DNA of 64,000 nucleotides. It comes from Gemmatimonadota bacterium (GTDB taxonomy: Bacteria > JAAXHH01). The notes beneath the pieces are model-generated. The model had not been told where the DNA came from. It saw only the letters and a program-made list of their open reading frames with translations, and ran no database searches. The DNA lies in contig VXRC01000049.1 in assembly GCA_009838645.1 (NCBI GenBank), positions 372,001 to 436,000 of the forward strand. The letters are read 5' to 3'. The position numbers and the translations under genes are program-made. Below, in pieces: positions 3,940 through 62,875 of this stretch (its first letter is position 1; each line of letters starts with the position of its first letter).

Positions 3940-4845
3940 TTGAATAAAATACGAAAGGCGGTCATCCCCCTGGCGGGGCACGGGTTGCGCATGTTGCCGG
4001 CGACCCGCGCCGTGCGCAAGGCGCTGTTCCCCATGGTGGACGTTCGGGGACGGGTATGCCCCGTGCTGCAGCTGATCATCGAGGAGGCGGTCAACGCGGG
4101 CATCGAGGAATTCGGCCTGGTGACCGCGCCGGAAGACGAGGCACTGATCCGCGCCTACTTTTCGCGGTTGCCCGGTCCGTTGAAATCCGCGATCGGAAAC
4201 CGCGCGGACCTGCTCGCGGCGGCCGAATTCCCCGGCGAACTTTCGGAGAAGCTGACCTACATTACGCAGGATCGTCCCCGGGGGTTCGGCGACGCGGTCC
4301 TCCGCGCGAAGACCTGGGTCGGCGGCGATCCGGTCCTGGTCATGCTCGGCGATCACCTTTACCTCAGCGGGGAGGACCGGTGCTGCGCGGGTCAGTTGCT
4401 GGACGCCTACGCGGATCTGCAAGCGCCGGTATCGGGGGTGATTCGCAAATCCATCGAAGACATCCACCACTTCGGGACGGTTTCGGGCCGTCCCGTGCCC
4501 AGGTGGAACGGGCTATACGTAATCGACACCGTGATGGAAAAACCCGGACCGGACCTGGCGCGAGAACGGCTGCGCATGGAGGGCATGCCGGCGGACACCT
4601 ACCTCTGCTGGTTCGGACTGCACGCCATGACGCCCGATATCTTCGATTGCCTGGTGCGGATGGAAGGAGGCGGCGCCACGGAAGGCGGCGAACTGCAACT
4701 GACCGGAGCACAGGCCATGCTGTCGGCTCAACGGGCATACTTCGCCCTGGAAATCAACGGGGATCACTACGACACGGGCTCGCCTCGGGGCTATGTGGAG
4801 GCCATGACGGCTTTCGCCTGTCCAACCGACCTTACCAACCAGTGA
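3940..4845 (+). CDS. sugar-1-phosphate nucleotidyltransferase (GalU/UTP-glucose-1-P uridylyltransferase-like)
   Basis: NTP-transferase fold enzyme of 301 aa, close to the usual GalU length. The start is a TTG at 3940 with GAAGGAGT 9 nt upstream, giving MNKIRKAVIPLAG. The nucleotide-binding loop reads PLAGHGLRMLPATRAVRKALFP, compared with PAAGxGTRxLPATKxxPKEMLP in GalU, so the Thr and the Pro-Lys-Glu are altered. The metal/nucleotide motif VMLGDHLY and the sugar-binding EKPGPD are present. It lies between the GHMP kinase and the RraA gene on the same strand and should use the kinase product. Nucleotide preference (UTP or dTTP) is uncertain because of the modified loop. Confidence 0.84.
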   Translation: MNKIRKAVIPLAGHGLRMLPATRAVRKALFPMVDVRGRVCPVLQLIIEEAVNAGIEEFGLVTAPEDEALIRAYFSRLPGPLKSAIGNRADLLAAAEFPGELSEKLTYITQDRPRGFGDAVLRAKTWVGGDPVLVMLGDHLYLSGEDRCCAGQLLDAYADLQAPVSGVIRKSIEDIHHFGTVSGRPVPRWNGLYVIDTVMEKPGPDLARERLRMEGMPADTYLCWFGLHAMTPDIFDCLVRMEGGGATEGGELQLTGAQAMLSAQRAYFALEINGDHYDTGSPRGYVEAMTAFACPTDLTNQ

Positions 4846-4861
4846 AAGGAAATCCAACACC

Positions 4862-5578
4862 ATGTCCGATCAGCAAGCACCATCGCGGGAAACGCTCGAA
4901 TCCCTGCTCATTCCGAGTACGGCCACGCTGACCTCCGTACTCACGGAATTCGGCCTGTACAACACGTTCATGCAGGACGTCGCGCCCCTGGCCCCGGGCA
5001 TGCGCGTGGCCGGTCCCGCATTTACCCTCCGGTATATACCCGGCCGGGAGGACATCACGCACGTGCCCGTGGACAACCTGACGGACATGCAGCGGATCGG
5101 TATCGAAAGCATCGGGCAGGGCGAGGTGCTCGTGATCGACGCGCGGGGCGACACCCGGGCCGGCGTCATGGGCGACATCCTCGCCACGAGGATCCTGCAG
5201 CGCGGCGCCGCGGGGGTGGTGAGCGACGGCGCGTTCCGGGATACGCCGGCCATCGTGGAGGCCGGGCTCGCCGCGTATGCAAAGGCCAAGAACGCCCACA
5301 ACAGCAAGAGCGTGCACTACCCGAGCGATATACAACGTCCCATTGCCTGCGGCGGCGTAGCCGTGTTCCCCGGAGACATCATCGTGGGCGACGCGGAGGG
5401 CGTCGTAGTGATCCCGCGCCACCTTGCCGAAGATGTGGCGGCAAAGGCCGTGGCGCAGGAGGACCGCGAAGTCTTCATCCTGCAGAAGATCCAGCAGGGA
5501 GCCAGCATCATCGGCGTTTACCCGCCCGATGAAAAGACCCTGGCCGAATACGAGGCCTGGAAGGCGAAAAAGGGCTGA
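4862..5578 (+). CDS. RraA-family protein (HMG/carboxy-oxaloacetate aldolase-like)
   Basis: 238 aa. RraA fold: family members are either regulators of RNase E or class II aldolases that cleave 4-hydroxy-4-methyl-2-oxoglutarate, or other 2-keto-acid enzymes. The G-D-I-L...GVVSDGAFRDTPAI stretch (about residues 102-132) carries the Arg-Asp pair that in the aldolases binds substrate and metal. The gene follows the nucleotidyltransferase by 16 bp, with GAAAGGAAA upstream of the ATG. It is longer at the C-terminus than E. coli RraA (161 aa), which favours the enzymatic branch. It ends 4 bp from the convergent MFS-HEAT gene. Confidence 0.85.
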   Translation: MSDQQAPSRETLESLLIPSTATLTSVLTEFGLYNTFMQDVAPLAPGMRVAGPAFTLRYIPGREDITHVPVDNLTDMQRIGIESIGQGEVLVIDARGDTRAGVMGDILATRILQRGAAGVVSDGAFRDTPAIVEAGLAAYAKAKNAHNSKSVHYPSDIQRPIACGGVAVFPGDIIVGDAEGVVVIPRHLAEDVAAKAVAQEDREVFILQKIQQGASIIGVYPPDEKTLAEYEAWKAKKG

Positions 5579-5582
5579 TACT

Positions 5583-7937
5583 TCAGTCGGTGTCGGTGGC
5601 CAGGTCCGCCATCCGCTGAAAGGCCACGACCGCCAGCAGTCTCTCCTCTGAGTGCAGGGTTCTGTTACGGCCTTCCGATTCCAGGTCCGCCAGGACCCTG
5701 TACGCCAGTGCGATCTCATTCGGGCGCGCTGCTGGTCCTTCCGCCGGCGCCATATCTTCGGTTGCATGGTCCGGGCGGTCCGGGCGGTCCGGGCGGTCCG
5801 TCCCCGCTTCCGCAACGATGTCCCGTGCGATCTCCACGAGCCGCTTCAGCACCTCACCGGTCTGTTGGCGCTCGAACGCGCTCAGGGCACGGTCGACGGC
5901 CTCCGTGAACCGGTTCCTTGCCGCTCTCTCGACACGCGACCAGCCACCCAGTTGCCGGCGGACGGTTCGGAAAATCCGCACCGTCGCCCGGTCCTGGTCC
6001 ATCTCGCCGGACTGTAGCAATCGGTACAGCAGATCCGGTGCGCCGAGGAGATGCCCCGCCGACATGACCAGGACACCCCGCTCAAGGCTGGTTTCGCTGC
6101 TCCGTATGAGGTCCTGAAGCCGTCCCAGGATACCGGTATTGCCCATCCTGGCCAGCGTTTCCAGGGCGGACTGAACGATCGCGGGATCCCGCTCATGCTC
6201 GAGCAGGGCTTCCAGCGCGGTTTCCGCGCGGCGGTCCCCGATTCGATCCAGGGCGAGAATGGCGCTTCGCCGGATGCCCGGACGTTCGTCGTGCAACAGG
6301 GTCACCAGGATGTTGAGACTGAGCGACGAAGGCACCGCGCCCAGGGCTTCCACGGCTTCTTCGGCGATGTCCGACGATGGGCTGCCCACGCATTCGAGCA
6401 GCGGATTGACGGACTCCACCGCGCCGATCCTGCTCAGGGACTGCACGGCCTCCCGGCGTACGTTGCGGTCGCTGTCCTCCAGCAACGCGATCAGTTCGTC
6501 CACGGCCAGGTGACTGCCCGTTTCGCCCAGTTCACGGGCGGCCCGGGCCCGGACCGAGGGATTGCTCGATTTCCCCATGCGCACCAGGTGCCACAGGGTC
6601 GCGATGGGATTCCCCTTGCGCACGCGGTTGATCACGTCCCGGGAAGAAACCTGCGAATCGGAGGTCACACGGGTCAGCAGGCCCATGTAGGCGACGCGAA
6701 GCGCCCCGTTGGCAAGAAAGAGGTATTGCAGACCCGCGAAGGTGTAGCCGAAGAAGGAGACGGCGGGGATGGAGGTACACAGATCGGCGGCAATGCCGCC
6801 CAGTACGGCGCCGCAGGCCGCGCACCCTCTCGATACCGCGGAGTAGCATCCCAGGAACGCGGAGCGGTTGACCGCCGGAGCCGTCTTGACGATGAGATTG
6901 AACCGGGCGGTACCCCACCCCGCGCTCATGCTGCCGCCCCAGACCTGTACCAGCGGCACCATGATCCAGTAGTTTTCCAGAGTCACGAAACCCCAGCCCA
7001 GCGGAAACAGAGCCAGTCCCACGGCGGTTAGCGACATGACCGGCTTGTACCCGTACTTGTCCGCCAGGTAGCCCCAGAAGGGATTCATGATGATCGTGGC
7101 GATGGTCTGAATCGCCGAGTAGATCGCGATCTGGGCGTAAGAGACCTCCAGCGTCCGCAACATGTAGACCGTGAAAAACGGCGCGGCGATCTGGGCGATG
7201 AGGAGCCGACCCGAAACCAGGAACATCAGTCTGCGAAAGGGACCGTGCCGGAAAGGCAGGCGAAGCAACTGGTTCGAAGGGACATGCTCTCCCCGGCTCT
7301 TCTGAGGTTCGGGAATGCGGGACCATGCCCAGACCCCGAAGCCGGAGAAGACCACGGCCACGATGAACAGGGTGGTGAAGCCTCCCTGCTCATCTCCCGC
7401 GGCGTACGTACTCAGGAAGAACCCCGCGCAGACCGACGTGATCAGTCCGGCGGACGCCGTCAAACTGCGCTGCCGGGCGACGAAGCGGCCGCGCATCTCG
7501 TCGGGTACCAGGTCGGTCAGCCAGGACTGACGGGCCGGAGAAACCAGGGACATGACGGCCTTCGAGAGGGCGATGCAGCCCATGAGCGCCAGCACCTGGT
7601 AAACCTCGAAGAAGAGAAAGGGGATGAAGGCGATGGGCAGCCAGAGCGACGAACTGACGGCATTGGCGGACAGGCACAGCGGCTTGCGCCGTTGCAGTCG
7701 CTCGATCAGCAGCGGCGAGAAGGCTTGTAGCAACTGGCCGATGGAAATGGACGCGGAAATAAAACCGATCATGGCGCTGGATGCGCCGAGATGCAGCGCG
7801 TAACCCGTGGTGTAGACACCCGTGGTAATCGCCGAATGCACCGACTCGAGCATGCCGTTCACGTTCCACATGCGCATCCCGCGCGCCGTCTGCAGCCGGG
7901 TCAGTTTCTTATCCTGTTGCATGATTCGATTTCCCAT
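5583..7937 (-). CDS. MFS transporter fused to C-terminal HEAT repeats
   Basis: 784 aa. Residues about 1-440 form a 12-helix major facilitator with an N-terminal MRMWNVNGMLES segment typical of uncharacterised MFS proteins. Residues about 460-620 contain at least five HEAT-like alpha hairpins of about 30 aa (for example SDRNVRREAVQSLSRIGA and DERPGIRRSAILALDRIGD). The last 160 residues are helical and include a DRP repeat (residues 711-723) encoded by a 9-bp microsatellite. The HEAT part should face the cytoplasm and offer a docking surface; the transported substrate is unknown. The start overlaps the upstream symporter stop by 29 bp, suggesting translational coupling; ATG 7922 is an alternative start. 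Confidence 0.85.
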   Translation of the reverse strand: MGNRIMQQDKKLTRLQTARGMRMWNVNGMLESVHSAITTGVYTTGYALHLGASSAMIGFISASISIGQLLQAFSPLLIERLQRRKPLCLSANAVSSSLWLPIAFIPFLFFEVYQVLALMGCIALSKAVMSLVSPARQSWLTDLVPDEMRGRFVARQRSLTASAGLITSVCAGFFLSTYAAGDEQGGFTTLFIVAVVFSGFGVWAWSRIPEPQKSRGEHVPSNQLLRLPFRHGPFRRLMFLVSGRLLIAQIAAPFFTVYMLRTLEVSYAQIAIYSAIQTIATIIMNPFWGYLADKYGYKPVMSLTAVGLALFPLGWGFVTLENYWIMVPLVQVWGGSMSAGWGTARFNLIVKTAPAVNRSAFLGCYSAVSRGCAACGAVLGGIAADLCTSIPAVSFFGYTFAGLQYLFLANGALRVAYMGLLTRVTSDSQVSSRDVINRVRKGNPIATLWHLVRMGKSSNPSVRARAARELGETGSHLAVDELIALLEDSDRNVRREAVQSLSRIGAVESVNPLLECVGSPSSDIAEEAVEALGAVPSSLSLNILVTLLHDERPGIRRSAILALDRIGDRRAETALEALLEHERDPAIVQSALETLARMGNTGILGRLQDLIRSSETSLERGVLVMSAGHLLGAPDLLYRLLQSGEMDQDRATVRIFRTVRRQLGGWSRVERAARNRFTEAVDRALSAFERQQTGEVLKRLVEIARDIVAEAGTDRPDRPDRPDHATEDMAPAEGPAARPNEIALAYRVLADLESEGRNRTLHSEERLLAVVAFQRMADLATDTD
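5768..5803 (+). repeat. 9-bp microsatellite (GGTCCGGGC x3 plus variant) inside MFS-HEAT gene
   Basis: Three perfect copies of GGTCCGGGC followed by GGTCCGTCC. On the coding (minus) strand they encode Asp-Arg-Pro triplets near residue 715 of the MFS-HEAT protein. The same unit recurs in three other genes of this window. Confidence 0.9.
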
Positions 7938-11018: not shown

Positions 11019-14000
11019 CTACTTCAACACCCCGATGCGGGCGACGTGCTCACCGAGCCTGAGTTCGCCGGAATGGACATCCCCGGGTACGGGCTCGTCA
11101 CGAAGCACCGTTGACAACGTTTCCGTCCTGATGTAGTCGGCGTGGGTATCGATGGCCTCGGCCAGGTCGCCGTCCGCCTCGTAGAAGAGCGTGATCCGGT
11201 CGTCCACGTTGAAATCGGCTTCCTTGCGAAGATTCTGCACGTGGCGGACGAAGTCCCGCATCAGTCCCTCGAGCAGGAGTTCGCGGGTTACCGTGGTGTC
11301 GATGGCGACTGTGCATCCGAAGCCCGATGTCACGGACAGCCCGTCGGCGTCTACCCGTTCGACCTCGAGCTCATCGGGCGACAGATCGACCCGTTCGCCA
11401 TCCACGTCGAGCGTGAGGACCTCGCCGCCCGCGACGCGAGCGCCGGTCTCGTCTCCGTCCAGTGCCTCGAGCGCCTGCCGCACGGCGTTGAGCCGCTTGC
11501 CGAACCGGGGTCCCCACTTCGAAAAGACCGGCTTCACAGCGTATCCGCGAAACGCGTCCTCGCTGTCGACCAGATCGAGTTCCTTCACGTTCAGTTCTTC
11601 CAGGACCTGCGCCCGCAGCCGCTCGATGGTTTTGCCCTGCCGGGCATTCGCGGGTTTCACCAGCAGCCGGAAGGCCGGCTGGCGGACTTTCATCCGGGCA
11701 TCGTTGCGCGCGGAGCGGCCCAGTTCGATCACCAGCATCAGGTCATCCATGTCGTCCATGAGATCCTGGTCGATCAGTTCGCCGGACGCCTCAGGGTATG
11801 CGCAGAGATGGACGCTTTCCGGTGCCGATGAATCTACGGGCGGGACCAGGCTCCGGTAGAGTTCCTCGGCGGAGAAAGGAAGTATGGGCGCGATCAGCCT
11901 GCTCATCGTCACCAGCACTTCGTAGAGCGTCTGGATGGCCGACTGCTTGTCCGCGTCATCGCCGCTCTTCCAGAAACGCCGCCGGCTCCGGCGGACGTAC
12001 CAGGTGGAGAGCACATCGATGAACCGTTCCGTTTCGCGGACTACCGCCGCCGAATCGAAGTGGTCCATCCGGTCGTTGCAGTGGCGAATCAACTGGTGAA
12101 TCCGCGAGAGTACCCACCGGTCGAGTTCGCTGCGGCCCGTTGCGGGAGCGGAAGCGGAAATCGGCGGGCAATCCGGAAGGTTGGCGTAGGTCACGAAGAA
12201 CGCGTAGACGTTCCACAGCCGCAGCATCTTCCGGGTCACCTCCTCGGCGGGCCCGTAACCGAAACGGAAGACCATGTTCAGGGGAGCGCCGGCGTACTGC
12301 CACCTCATCACGTCGGCGCCCATGCGACCCGTGGCGTCCTCCACGGCGATGGCGTTGTCGCCGCTCTTGCTGAAGGGCTCGCCGTTTTCGTCTCTCATCT
12401 CTTCGTAGGTGAGCACGGCCTTGAACGGCGACCGGTCGTAGAGGGTCACCGACATGAACAACTGTGAATAGAACCACAGTCTGATCTGTTCCCGCATCTC
12501 CGTGATCCAGTCCGCGGGAGACCACGATTCCCAGGTGGATTCGGGACCGGGCGAGGCAACACCCTCCTTGTCTCTTTCGGCTTCCGGTCCACGCTCCGAC
12601 CGGATCGTGCCTTCGATCCCCCTGTGCTCCGGCAGATAGTTCAAGGTCGAAAAGGGCACGATCCCGGCATCGAGCCAGCAGTCGCCCACTTCGGTCACCC
12701 TTCTCGCGGCCTCGCCGCACCGCTCGCAGGTGATTTCGATTTCGTCGATCCACGGGCGGTGGAGTTCGGGCAGATCGTCGACGAGGGCGGGATCCACCGC
12801 CCGTTCGCGCAGTTCGGCCGTGCTGCCTATGACATTGATATGGTCGCATTTCCCGCAACAGTAAAAGGGCAGGGGCAGTCCCCAGAAACGCCGGCGCGAA
12901 ATGCACCAGTCTCCCATGTTGTCCAGCCAGTCCTGCATCAGGAGCCCGCTGTACTCGGGTACCCACCGGACCGTGTCGGCGGCCCGCTTCATCGGCGCCC
13001 TGATCTCGTCGGCGGAAATGAACCACTCGTCGGCCAGGCGGAAGACCAGCGGGGTTTTGCACCGCCAGCAGAAGGGATACCGGTGCGTATAGTCTTCCCA
13101 GCGGAACAGTACGTCCCTGGATTCCAGCTCGCGCTTGACGCCCTCGGCCGAATCCCGAACATGGGTGGCGGCGAGCGGACCGATGTCGTCCGTGAAATAG
13201 CCGTTTTCGTCGATCGGCACGATGATGGCCAGGTCCAGTTCCTGTCCGAGCTGATAGTCCTCGGCCCCGCAACCCGGCGCGATATGGACGATCCCAGTGC
13301 CTTCCTCGTCCGAGACCATGTCCCACGGGACGGTGGCGCGGTTGACCTCCCGCTGCGCGGGAAGATCCTCCAGCGGACCGTGGAACGGCAGGCCGATCAG
13401 GTCCTCCCCCTTTACCGTCTCGACGACTTCGGCTTCCGGCGGCAATACCGTCTCGACGAGCGATTTCATCAGGTAGTAGTGCGCGCCGTCCAGGACCGCT
13501 TTCGCGTATTCGGCTTCCGGATGCAGCGCCAGGGCCGTGTTGGCCGTCAGGGTCCACGGCGTGGTGGTCCAGACCAGGAAGTACTCGTCTTCACGGCCGC
13601 CAACGCGGCAGCGGAAGAAACAGGAGGGGTCGGTCTGTTCCTGGTAGGAGTCCACCAGTTCGTGCTGGCTCAGGCTGGTGCCGCACCGCCAGCACCAGGG
13701 CATGGACCGGTAACCCCGGTATAGCCATTTCCGGGCGTCACAGGCCTTGAGAAAGTGCCAGATGTGTTCGATGTTGTTGTCGTCCAGCGTGTAGTAGGAC
13801 GCCGGATGGCCGTCTTCGTGGTACCACTGCATCCAGTGGCCCATGCGGATGGACTGCCGCGTGATCCGCTCCGCGTACTCGTCCACTCTCGCGCGGCACG
13901 CCCGGGAGAACTCCGCCAGGCCGAAGGTCTCGATATCCCGCTTCGAATCGAATCCCAACGCCCGCTCGACCTCGACTTCCACCCAGAGTCCCTGGCAGTC

Positions 14001-14255
14001 GAACCCGTTCTGCCACCGCTGGTTGAACCCCTTCATGGCCTTGTAGCGGCAGTACATGTCCTTGTACGTCCGACCCCAGGCGTGGTGGACGCCCATGGCG
14101 TTGTTGGCGGTAATCGGGCCGTCGATGAAGGACCAGGTGGGGCGATCCGCCAATTGCGCGCGCAACTTGTCGAAAATCCGATGCTCCGCCCACCACGCGA
14201 GAATGCGCTTCTCCATGGCGGGGTATTCCATCTTTCCGTCAAAGGGCTTGAACAT
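11019..14255 (-). CDS. ileS: isoleucyl-tRNA synthetase with altered HIGH (GVHH) and KMSKS (PFSKS) motifs
   Basis: Class I synthetase charging tRNA-Ile, 1078 aa. The N-terminus MFKPFDGKMEYPAMEKRIL and the adenylation core are clear. Where the HIGH motif belongs, the protein has GVHH (residues 55-58, DNA 14093-14082) within ANNAMGVHHAWGRTYKD, and the spacing to the KD pair equals that of HIGH enzymes. The KMSKS loop reads PFSKS (DNA 12377-12363). The CP1 editing domain is present (VWTTTPWTLTANTALALHP). Anticodon-binding and C-terminal domains follow. HIGH-to-GxHH exchange is known from type 2 IleRS linked to very strong mupirocin resistance. Start: ATG 14255 matches the family N-terminus; GTG 14267 is the alternative. 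Confidence 0.95.
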   Translation of the reverse strand: MFKPFDGKMEYPAMEKRILAWWAEHRIFDKLRAQLADRPTWSFIDGPITANNAMGVHHAWGRTYKDMYCRYKAMKGFNQRWQNGFDCQGLWVEVEVERALGFDSKRDIETFGLAEFSRACRARVDEYAERITRQSIRMGHWMQWYHEDGHPASYYTLDDNNIEHIWHFLKACDARKWLYRGYRSMPWCWRCGTSLSQHELVDSYQEQTDPSCFFRCRVGGREDEYFLVWTTTPWTLTANTALALHPEAEYAKAVLDGAHYYLMKSLVETVLPPEAEVVETVKGEDLIGLPFHGPLEDLPAQREVNRATVPWDMVSDEEGTGIVHIAPGCGAEDYQLGQELDLAIIVPIDENGYFTDDIGPLAATHVRDSAEGVKRELESRDVLFRWEDYTHRYPFCWRCKTPLVFRLADEWFISADEIRAPMKRAADTVRWVPEYSGLLMQDWLDNMGDWCISRRRFWGLPLPFYCCGKCDHINVIGSTAELRERAVDPALVDDLPELHRPWIDEIEITCERCGEAARRVTEVGDCWLDAGIVPFSTLNYLPEHRGIEGTIRSERGPEAERDKEGVASPGPESTWESWSPADWITEMREQIRLWFYSQLFMSVTLYDRSPFKAVLTYEEMRDENGEPFSKSGDNAIAVEDATGRMGADVMRWQYAGAPLNMVFRFGYGPAEEVTRKMLRLWNVYAFFVTYANLPDCPPISASAPATGRSELDRWVLSRIHQLIRHCNDRMDHFDSAAVVRETERFIDVLSTWYVRRSRRRFWKSGDDADKQSAIQTLYEVLVTMSRLIAPILPFSAEELYRSLVPPVDSSAPESVHLCAYPEASGELIDQDLMDDMDDLMLVIELGRSARNDARMKVRQPAFRLLVKPANARQGKTIERLRAQVLEELNVKELDLVDSEDAFRGYAVKPVFSKWGPRFGKRLNAVRQALEALDGDETGARVAGGEVLTLDVDGERVDLSPDELEVERVDADGLSVTSGFGCTVAIDTTVTRELLLEGLMRDFVRHVQNLRKEADFNVDDRITLFYEADGDLAEAIDTHADYIRTETLSTVLRDEPVPGDVHSGELRLGEHVARIGVLK

Positions 14256-14492
14256 CTGGCCAGACACTGGTAACTAGATACTCCAAAGGTTAAACGGTTT
14301 ACGACGCCTCCTGCTGATTTAGCGCCACCCGGCATACGGAATCTTCTGCCTGAAAGAGCATATCGGCCGAACTGGAACGCCGGTCTGAAAATAGGCGGTA
14401 AGGGTCTGTTACACAAGGTAATTCTGGCCGGCGGGAGGGTGGATGGTCGGGCCGGCGGCCGGGCTGGAAACAACGATCACCGGGCGGTGATT

Positions 14493-15479: not shown

Positions 15480-16880
15480 TTGAGCCGCGATAAGCCCAAT
15501 ATCCTGTTCTTCTTTACCGACGACCAGCGCTTCGATACGATAAACGCGCTGGGGAACCCCCTTGTTCACACGCCCGCCATGGACCGGCTGGTCGCCCGGG
15601 GCGTTTCCTTAACGCACGCCCATATCCCCGGCGGTACATCGGCCGCCATATGCATGCCCAGTCGGGCCATGCTGCATACCGGCCGCACCCTGTTTCATCT
15701 CGACGGCGCCGGCGCGGACATACCGCCGGAGCACACGCTGATGGGGGAATACCTGCGGTCCCACGGCTACCGTACCTGGGGCACGGGTAAATGGCACAAC
15801 GGCGTCCCGTCCTACGCCCGCAGTTTTTCGGACGGCGCGGAGATCTTCTTCGGGGGCATGGACGACCACTGGAACGTACCGGTCTTCGACTACGACCCGG
15901 AGGGGAAGTACGACGGCAAGCTGCTACAATGTCCGGATGCCTTCCACTCGAACAAAGTGAATGTACGGAAGGGGGACCACGTGCACGCCGGGCGGCACTC
16001 CAGCGAGATCTTCGCCGACTGCGCCGCCGAGTGGCTGAAGGAATATGATTCCGAAGATCCCTTCTTCATGTACGTCTCGTTCATGGCGCCCCACGATCCC
16101 AGGACGATGCCCCGGGAGTTCCTGGAAATGTATGATCCCGAGGACATCCCGCTGCCGCGGAACTTCATGGGCGGTCATCCCTTCGATAACGGCGACCTGA
16201 AGGTACGTGACGAAGTCCTGGAGACGTTTCCGCGCGATCCGGCGAGCGTGCGGCGCCACATTGCCGAATACTACGCGATGATTTCCCACCTGGACGCGCA
16301 GATGGGGCGGGTCATGCAGGTGCTGGAAGACCGTGGCATGGCGGACGACACCATCGTCGTCTTCGCCGGGGACAACGGCCTGGCGATCGGCCAGCATGGG
16401 CTGTTCGGCAAGCAGAACATGTACGAGCACAGCATACGCGTGCCCCTGGTCTTCTCAGGACCAGGCATCCCGCGCGGTGTCCGGCGCAGCGCTTACGCGT
16501 ACCTGCTCGATATCTTTCCCACCCTGTGCGATCTGACGGGACTGGACACGCCCGGTTCCGTGGAAGGGGTGAGTCTGGCGCCGACGTTCGATGATCCCGC
16601 CGCACGCCCGAGAGACACGGTGTTCGCGGCCTACCGCCAGTGGCAGCGCATGGTGAAGGACGACCGGTTCAAACTGATCGAATACGTGGTCGACGGGCGC
16701 CGGACGACCCAGCTGTTCGACCTGGAACGCGACCCGCTGGAATGCCGCAATCTGGCCGGCGAAGCCGCTCATGCCGACCGGCTTGCAGGCCTTCGTTCCA
16801 GGCTTTTCGACTGGCGGGATGAATGGGGTGACGGGGACAGCGAATGGGGCCGGGCCTTCTGGGGTGGGTACGGCTCGTGA
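15480..16880 (+). CDS. Cys-type sulfatase
   Basis: Alkaline-phosphatase-superfamily sulfatase of 466 aa, hydrolysing a sulfate ester. The signature CMPSR (Cys58-Arg62) marks the cysteine that would be converted to formylglycine; the N-terminal metal site is NILFFFTDDQRFDT and the second metal site VVFAGDNGLAIGQHGLFGK. There is no signal peptide, so it should be cytoplasmic and act on imported substrates. The start is a TTG at 15480 with AGGAAAGGG about 10 nt upstream. The substrate is unknown; the domain looks closest to the iduronate-2-sulfatase/choline-sulfatase group. No maturase is encoded in the window. Confidence 0.92.
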   Translation: MSRDKPNILFFFTDDQRFDTINALGNPLVHTPAMDRLVARGVSLTHAHIPGGTSAAICMPSRAMLHTGRTLFHLDGAGADIPPEHTLMGEYLRSHGYRTWGTGKWHNGVPSYARSFSDGAEIFFGGMDDHWNVPVFDYDPEGKYDGKLLQCPDAFHSNKVNVRKGDHVHAGRHSSEIFADCAAEWLKEYDSEDPFFMYVSFMAPHDPRTMPREFLEMYDPEDIPLPRNFMGGHPFDNGDLKVRDEVLETFPRDPASVRRHIAEYYAMISHLDAQMGRVMQVLEDRGMADDTIVVFAGDNGLAIGQHGLFGKQNMYEHSIRVPLVFSGPGIPRGVRRSAYAYLLDIFPTLCDLTGLDTPGSVEGVSLAPTFDDPAARPRDTVFAAYRQWQRMVKDDRFKLIEYVVDGRRTTQLFDLERDPLECRNLAGEAAHADRLAGLRSRLFDWRDEWGDGDSEWGRAFWGGYGS

Positions 16881-61459: not shown

Positions 61460-62875
61460 GTGACCGGCTCCGCAAGCCCCTCCCGTCCGAACGTCATCCT
61501 CTGCATCTGCGACCAGTTGCGCGCATTCGAAGTGGGATGCTACGGAAACAAGGTCGTCCGGACGCCCCACCTGGACCGGCTCGCGGCGGAAGGCGTGCGA
61601 TTCGAAACGGCGGTGAGCAACAACCCCGTCTGCATGCCCGCCCGGTCCAGTCTCCTGTCGGGCCAGTACAGCCGGACATGCATGGGCGCGCTGGGTAATT
61701 TCTCGAAGCGTCAGGCGGATGGATCCACGACGATGCCCGAGTATCCGGCGGACGGGCGGCCCCACCTGCCTGCTCCGTCACTGCCCGAGATGTTCAGGAC
61801 CCTGGGATACGATACGGCTCTGATCGGGAAATGGCACATCCATTCCGCACCCGGACCGCTGGGATTCGACTACAGCCTGTACCCGCGGGTCCACCACCGG
61901 CACAGCGGTCAGTCTTTCGTGGAGAACGACGGTGAGGAGTTCCAGGTAGAGGGATTCAGCGTCCGCTTCGAATCGGACCAGGTCGGCGGCTATCTGAGGG
62001 ACCGCGAGAATCGGGCGAATCCCTTTTTTCTCTACTACAGCATTTCCCCACCCCACATGCCCCTCATGGACGCGCCCGAATCGTACCTGGACATGTACGA
62101 CCCCGCCGATATCCCCCTGCGGCCCAATGTCTACCGGGACGGCCGGCTGCCATACGACGAACACTGGTTCAAGGTTTATCTGTGGGACTTTCTCTTCTAC
62201 GAAAGGGACCTGCCGTTCACGCGCATGCTGCCGCCCGGATTCGATCTGCGGCACCTGATCGCCCTGTACTACGGCATGACGACCTGGGTGGACGACATGG
62301 TCGGACGCCTCATGCACTTCCTCAAGGCGTACCAACTCGCGGAAAATACCATCGTCGTCTTCCTCTCCGATCACGGCGACAACCTGGGCAGCCACCACCT
62401 GTTCAACAAGGGCCGCCTGATCGAAGAGTCCATACGCATCCCGCTGGTCTTTCACGCACCAGGCCGCTTGAAACCGCGGGTCGATACGGCCACGACGGCC
62501 CAGCTCATCGACGTCATGCCCACCCTGCTTTCCCTCTGCGGCGGTTCCGTACCCGCCCACGTCCAGGGGCGGGACCTCTCGTCGGCGTTTCCGGGTGGGA
62601 CCGGGCCGAAGGAAGACGAAGGCGTATTCGTGGAGACTTCCCAGGGACAGATCGGATTGCGCACGCCGACCCACACCTACGGGATCCGCGTCGATCCGGA
62701 AAACGGAAAAGTGCTGGATGACCGGGAATGCTTCTACGATCTGCGGTCTGACCCCTATCAGTTGTCCAACCTGAGGGACGCCCGCCACGACAAGGGGCTG
62801 GCGGCCGGTCTCCGGGACCGGGTGCTCGCCTGGCACCACGCAACGCCGTGGATGCACAGCGGCGCATACCCGTGA
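61460..62875 (+). CDS. Cys-type sulfatase (second copy)
   Basis: 471 aa. The signature CMPAR (Cys58-Arg62) in NNPVCMPARSSLLSGQYSRT is a formylglycine site; metal ligands are in NVILCICDQLRAFEVGCYG and VVFLSDHGDNLGSHHLFNKG. No signal peptide, so cytoplasmic like the first sulfatase; the two share only family motifs. GTG start with ACGGAG upstream. Next to TauE/SafE and an MFS gene, it fits uptake and desulfation of a sulfate ester. Confidence 0.93.
   Translation: MTGSASPSRPNVILCICDQLRAFEVGCYGNKVVRTPHLDRLAAEGVRFETAVSNNPVCMPARSSLLSGQYSRTCMGALGNFSKRQADGSTTMPEYPADGRPHLPAPSLPEMFRTLGYDTALIGKWHIHSAPGPLGFDYSLYPRVHHRHSGQSFVENDGEEFQVEGFSVRFESDQVGGYLRDRENRANPFFLYYSISPPHMPLMDAPESYLDMYDPADIPLRPNVYRDGRLPYDEHWFKVYLWDFLFYERDLPFTRMLPPGFDLRHLIALYYGMTTWVDDMVGRLMHFLKAYQLAENTIVVFLSDHGDNLGSHHLFNKGRLIEESIRIPLVFHAPGRLKPRVDTATTAQLIDVMPTLLSLCGGSVPAHVQGRDLSSAFPGGTGPKEDEGVFVETSQGQIGLRTPTHTYGIRVDPENGKVLDDRECFYDLRSDPYQLSNLRDARHDKGLAAGLRDRVLAWHHATPWMHSGAYP

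Follow-up and report, generated by a model that had tools for sequence, protein, structure and literature searches.

The only isoleucyl-tRNA synthetase of a bacterial draft genome carries GVHH and PFSKS in place of HIGH and KMSKS and belongs to a widespread clade of type-2 enzymes

The window, that is, the whole stretch of 64,000 nucleotides that was analysed, encodes the sole isoleucyl-tRNA synthetase (IleRS) of its genome, in which residues 1 and 3 of the HIGH motif are exchanged and the first lysine of the KMSKS motif is replaced. Both alterations are shared by a large clade of type-2 enzymes (IleRS2) that extends across many phyla, rather than being a peculiarity of the window's genome. 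The protein is very probably an active, proofreading housekeeping GXHH IleRS2, apparently of the minor clade, that would be hyper-resistant to mupirocin and for which the first KMSKS lysine would be dispensable.

The gene, which ends at a TAG stop codon, is listed with its features in Table 1. Its product scored 692.4 bits with TIGR00392, above the equivalog cutoff of 621.4 bits, and the AlphaFold2 model reached a pLDDT of 87.4 and a pTM of 0.80. Alignments of its relatives begin at residues 4 to 6, which suggests that the downstream ATG is probably the real start. Directly downstream of ileS, on the same strand, lies a pyruvate kinase gene, an arrangement also found in a relative from another family. 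The neighbourhood is ordinary, the gene lying outside any biosynthetic cluster, and an Rfam search of the region upstream of ileS revealed neither a T-box nor any other RNA element. Two sulfatase-like genes, recognised by their translated sequence only, lie elsewhere in the window (15480-16880 and 61460-62875, both on the forward strand).

Table 1. Location of ileS and of the features of its product in the window
Feature	Position	Strand	Description and basis
ileS, isoleucyl-tRNA synthetase	11019..14267	-	1082 aa from GTG 14267; TIGR00392, PDB and fold matches to IleRS2
Alternative ileS start (probable)	ATG 14255	-	1078 aa; alignment start of relatives
Asn56	14100..14102	-	3 residues before the HIGH position; K/R in the branch without a KMSKS lysine; clade alignment
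GVHH, residues 59-62	14082..14093	-	At the HIGH position, residues 1 and 3 exchanged; PDB alignment, codons, model
GFDCQG, residues 88-93	13989..14006	-	For canonical GWDxHG; FDxQG in nearly the whole clade; clade alignment
TTTPWTL, residues 234-240	13548..13568	-	Intact Thr-rich peptide in the CP1 editing domain; sequence
CWLDAG, residues 530-535	12663..12680	-	For canonical WFDSG; WLDAG in nearly the whole clade, Ile-pocket Trp531 kept; clade alignment
PFSKS, residues 631-635	12363..12377	-	At the KMSKS position, with Pro for the first Lys and catalytic Lys634 kept; PDB alignment, codons, clade alignment
Anticodon-binding domain PF08264	11673..12122	-	Domain match in IleRS
DUF5915 domain PF19302, C-terminal	11100..11609	-	Domain match in IleRS

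A reading made from the sequence alone had seen no second ileS within the window, and none was found when the search was widened to all of the genome, a draft of 50 contigs with a size of 3.8 Mb and a completeness of 97%. The remaining class I matches scored below 75 bits and corresponded to separate frames of 919 and 846 aa, ValRS-like and LeuRS-like. Ten further genomes from the genus, family and order carried the full-length gene; within the same order it was split over contig ends in two more and reduced to a short contig-end fragment in another, while no copy was detected in two genomes (G007 and G014). No IleRS of another kind was found in any surveyed genome of the window's genus, family and order. 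In public records, the phylum label of three close relatives of the window's genome (L035, L036 and L038) is inconsistent, varying between Gemmatimonadetes and Latescibacterota.

The genome contains a tRNA-Ile(GAU) adjoining a tRNA-Ala(UGC), as in rRNA operons, together with three CAU tRNAs. The enzyme is predicted to charge tRNA-Ile with isoleucine, which fits its status as sole IleRS, the presence of its tRNA and the retention of the pocket residues (see below). The unusual catalytic motifs might instead point to a paralogue without a role in translation, for instance one that confers self-resistance or transfers aminoacyl groups in natural-product biosynthesis. However, this is highly improbable and largely refuted by the sole-copy status, since the protein stands alone as IleRS in its genome, as it does in almost every intact relative; moreover, it passes the equivalog cutoff, keeps the editing and anticodon domains, and is encoded next to pyruvate kinase, outside any biosynthetic cluster.

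The placement of GVHH at the active site, proposed by the sequence-only reading, was borne out by its codons, by alignment to known structures and by the model. Thus, GGC GTC CAC CAC (14093-14082) encodes a motif that in phmmer alignments against the PDB matches the HIGH position in entries for Priestia megaterium IleRS2, the engineered GVHH mutant (8c8w) among them, and that occupies the tip or start of the first catalytic helix in the AlphaFold2 model. The same alignments to PDB IleRS2 disclosed no other HxGH motif at the active site. The motif begins with Gly and has His in its third and fourth places, and so conforms to the definition of G/AXHH IleRS2 (Gly or Ala at position 1).

The PFSKS loop, encoded by CCC TTC AGC AAG AGC, also lies exactly where it had been placed (12377-12363). 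It aligned with the KMSKS of P. megaterium IleRS2 in the phmmer search, and in the model it forms a loop following a core strand, as expected for KMSKS; by counting, Lys634 was matched to K593 of the P. megaterium enzyme. The source being a draft assembly in 50 contigs, a sequencing or assembly error could be invoked for either motif. The chance of this is negligible, and the idea is already refuted, since GVHH and PFSKS recurred unchanged in a further 11 genomes from the order while their codons differed synonymously. Such constancy in the face of synonymous change also indicates that the residues are under selection.

In Escherichia coli LeuRS, the first KMSKS lysine touches C75 of the tRNA and the second touches a phosphate (PMC5059758), and the loss of the first lysine alone should therefore be tolerable. 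By extension to the present clade, the first lysine would be dispensable, and Lys634 would supply the charge that contacts the phosphate.

The residues of the isoleucine pocket and of the editing site are intact. Pro51, Trp531 and Trp598, which we take to be the equivalents of the Ile-pocket residues of Thermus thermophilus IleRS, and the editing residue Asp337 were conserved in 146 to 148 of 148 relatives, Asp337 being invariant. The enzyme would activate isoleucine with ATP and then charge tRNA-Ile, with proofreading through its intact CP1 domain.

In a phylogenetic tree, the window enzyme and its relatives formed a single clade (SH-aLRT 99, in a tree with a long outgroup branch and sparse sampling of IleRS1) lying apart from the major GXHH and HXGH IleRS2, the eukaryote-like enzymes and IleRS1. 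IleRS1 split off, leaving the window enzyme with the type-2 and eukaryote-like enzymes, although few IleRS1 rows and a long outgroup entered this comparison. In a Foldseek search, the top matches were the four structures of P. megaterium IleRS2, with TM values of up to 0.84, and eukaryotic IleRS and IleRS1 ranked below them; tree grouping and structural matches thus agree on type-2 membership.

Among the 148 aligned clade members, none has lysine at the first position of KMSKS (residue 631), which is occupied by Glu in 89, Pro in 23, Ala in 22 and other residues in the remainder; 141 have His at the third position. All members share His61, and the signature residues Gln92, Leu532 and Ala534 occur in 147, 148 and 147 members, respectively. 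GxHH or a near variant is found in every member except for one actinobacterial branch. As delimited here, the clade combines a GxHH-type motif, FDxQG, WLDAG and the lack of lysine at KMSKS position 1, and the window enzyme displays all four. By contrast, the observed GXHH enzymes from the other IleRS2 clade retain KMSKS, in one case as KMSKH.

The suggestion that the double motif change might define a distinct subfamily was therefore right in one respect, that of a distinct clade with a support of 99, and wrong in another, since the clade is marked by a KMSKS motif lacking its first lysine, by FDxQG and by WLDAG. PFSKS itself was rejected as a defining mark: it is the version of the window's order, with QFSKT and YFSKT in two Planctomycetota, and the norm of the clade is xMHKS.

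A scan of named genomes with an alignment of the window's order yielded at least 569 confirmed stretches, and the best 80 of these included Chloroflexota, Planctomycetota, Armatimonadota, Latescibacterota, Neomarinimicrobiota, WOR-3, Cloacimonadota, KSB1, Poribacteria, Actinomycetota and others. The pattern GxHHAWGRT occurred in 38 of 384 sampled genomes, 14 of which, counting that of the window, come from the window's order. One bin labelled Heimdallarchaeota (G389) held two kinds of IleRS, one of which (L082) belongs to the window's bacterial clade and carries RLSKT; this represents either contamination or transfer.

The clade appears to correspond to the minor IleRS2 clade (node 747) of Brkic et al. 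2023, to judge by the phyla and the GXHH ancestor described for the latter: Planctomycetota and Chloroflexi are named there too, and the present clade has GXHH throughout, the comparison being one of descriptions rather than of trees. In the literature searched, we found no description of MHKS-type IleRS, of the motifs of Gaiellales IleRS, of the clade-wide loss of the first KMSKS lysine or of the second lysine's apparent relocation in one order.

The exceptional actinobacterial branch goes further. In an actinobacterial metagenome-assembled genome (MAG), the IleRS encoded at 3962-7072 (L089) has ANK before the HIGH position, AVHT at it and EMHGS in the KMSKS loop; it scored 659.6 bits with TIGR00392, above the IleRS cutoff, and its structure model reached a pLDDT of 89.5. 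Nearly all of the 81 genomes of its order, which includes MAGs titled Gaiellales and Thermoleophilia, have one IleRS of the window's clade and none other. In a branch within this order (members among L166-L191, L230-L241, L262-L263 and L266-L267, plus L089), the second KMSKS lysine is replaced by Gly, Ala or Ser, giving xMH[G/A/S]S with Lys or Arg before HIGH, and 22 proteins also lack the fourth His (VHT).

Residue 56, which precedes the HIGH position by three residues, or by four where one residue is inserted, was Lys or Arg in 31 of the 32 proteins without Lys or Arg at 634, versus none of the 115 that have it. The sole exception (L189) carries KTANT, with a lysine four residues earlier, and VHT never co-occurred with Lys or Arg at 634 in the 148 aligned members. 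The association gave a Fisher p-value of 5e-31 and corresponds to about two events on the tree. In a tree built without the motif columns, there was a single loss of Lys634 and a single reversion, which affected the three traits together in L173 (genome G472), a protein nested in the VHT branch with a support of 99 yet showing ANG, GVHH and EMHKS. This protein may represent either a coordinated reversion or a recombination. Many independent events of coupling were thus rejected: because two changes suffice, the p-value is no evidence for them, and the coupling stands without statistical proof. Elsewhere in the phylum, the pattern was not widespread (5 of 297 genomes).

On balance, we slightly favour a stepwise dismantling of the motifs, in genomes with a sole IleRS, in which the HIGH loop took over the catalytic lysine from the KMSKS loop, in convergence with ArgRS. 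The exchange in HIGH and the loss of the first KMSKS lysine, common to the whole clade, would have come first; in the Gaiellales-type branch, the second KMSKS lysine would then have been lost and a Lys or Arg gained three or four residues before HIGH, with loss of the fourth His as the last step.

The swap bears on resistance to mupirocin. According to Brkic et al. 2023 (PMC10485003), G/AXHH was found in 86 IleRS2 of two clades and never in IleRS1, and motif-exchange experiments showed that the swap confers up to about 1,000-fold more resistance, with Ki values up to the millimolar range (6.6 mM for a natural ALHH IleRS2; about 10 mM for that of Streptomyces griseus, PMC10485003 and PMC4861432). 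Placing GVHH in two HVGH type-2 enzymes raised Ki about 200- to 430-fold, at a cost in activity of up to about 10-fold. This enzymology agrees with the statement in the sequence-only reading that the exchange in type-2 enzymes gives extreme resistance and preserves activity. The explanation given there is that a shifted HIGH motif makes room for the position-3 His, which clashes with mupirocin. In the window enzyme, His61, the His moved to position 3, would likewise block the space that mupirocin needs, and intrinsic hyper-resistance would be expected both on this ground and by analogy with the published enzymes that share the swap. Those GXHH enzymes whose resistance was measured apparently fall in the other IleRS2 clade, and the additional motif changes of the present clade could shift mupirocin binding in either direction.

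Why the motif changed is a separate matter from the identity of the enzyme. Fixation of the double change for reasons other than mupirocin, for instance by drift or by coevolution in a remodelled active site, with any resistance as a by-product, has a probability somewhat short of even. It is favoured by the presence of the change throughout the clade, in many phyla and habitats without known contact with mupirocin producers, by the accompanying core changes to FDxQG and WLDAG, and by a genome without a second ileS and with an ordinary gene neighbourhood. On the other hand, the swap arose at least twice within IleRS2 and brings a large gain in resistance, which fits selection (PMC10485003), and the selective agent may have been other IleRS inhibitors.

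Whatever its cause, the GXHH motif of IleRS2 shows that the most conserved class I motif tolerates rewriting, which here brings intrinsic resistance to an antibiotic. The window's clade adds that KMSKS is also erodible in GXHH enzymes, one lysine first and both in a side branch. This natural series makes it testable which charges around ATP class I aminoacyl-tRNA synthesis needs, and whether another loop can supply the lysine, as in ArgRS; the parts that merit biochemistry are the clade-wide loss of the first lysine and the second lysine's apparent relocation.

A lysine in the HIGH loop of ArgRS has reportedly been proposed as a substitute for the missing KMSKS lysine, and the genome's own ArgRS has AKPLHVGH, with Lys likewise three residues before HVGH. 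The likeness concerns the Gaiellales-type IleRS and not the window enzyme: both ArgRS and that branch lack a KMSKS lysine and have one three residues before HIGH, although ArgRS is a different synthetase and the branch often lacks the fourth His of HIGH as well. This parallel suggests that the catalytic lysine of the Gaiellales-type enzymes may have moved between loops.

The closest structural counterpart, P. megaterium IleRS2 (PDB 8c8u, 8c8v and 8c8w), is the best fold match (TM 0.84) and aligns over its full length with about 33% identity, but it has a natural HVGH, GVHH only as an engineered mutant, and a canonical KMSKS. MupA and MupB belong to the same superfamily and probably share mupirocin resistance with the window enzyme; however, they are acquired genes, whereas ileS of the window is a chromosomal sole copy, and their models scored it at 600 and 582 bits, far below cutoffs of 1900 bits. 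GXHH itself is already known, and the window enzyme is a further member of the published G/AXHH IleRS2. It shares with them, as described in PMC10485003, the swap of positions 1 and 3 of HXGH, the type-2 architecture and the status of sole housekeeping IleRS already known for IleRS2. The running text of that article makes no mention of a loss of the first KMSKS lysine combined with altered other motifs, and it is here that the clades differ: the major-clade GXHH enzymes examined keep KMSKS, GWDxHG or GWDxQG, and WFDSG, whereas members of the window's clade lack the first lysine of KMSKS and have the other two motifs altered.
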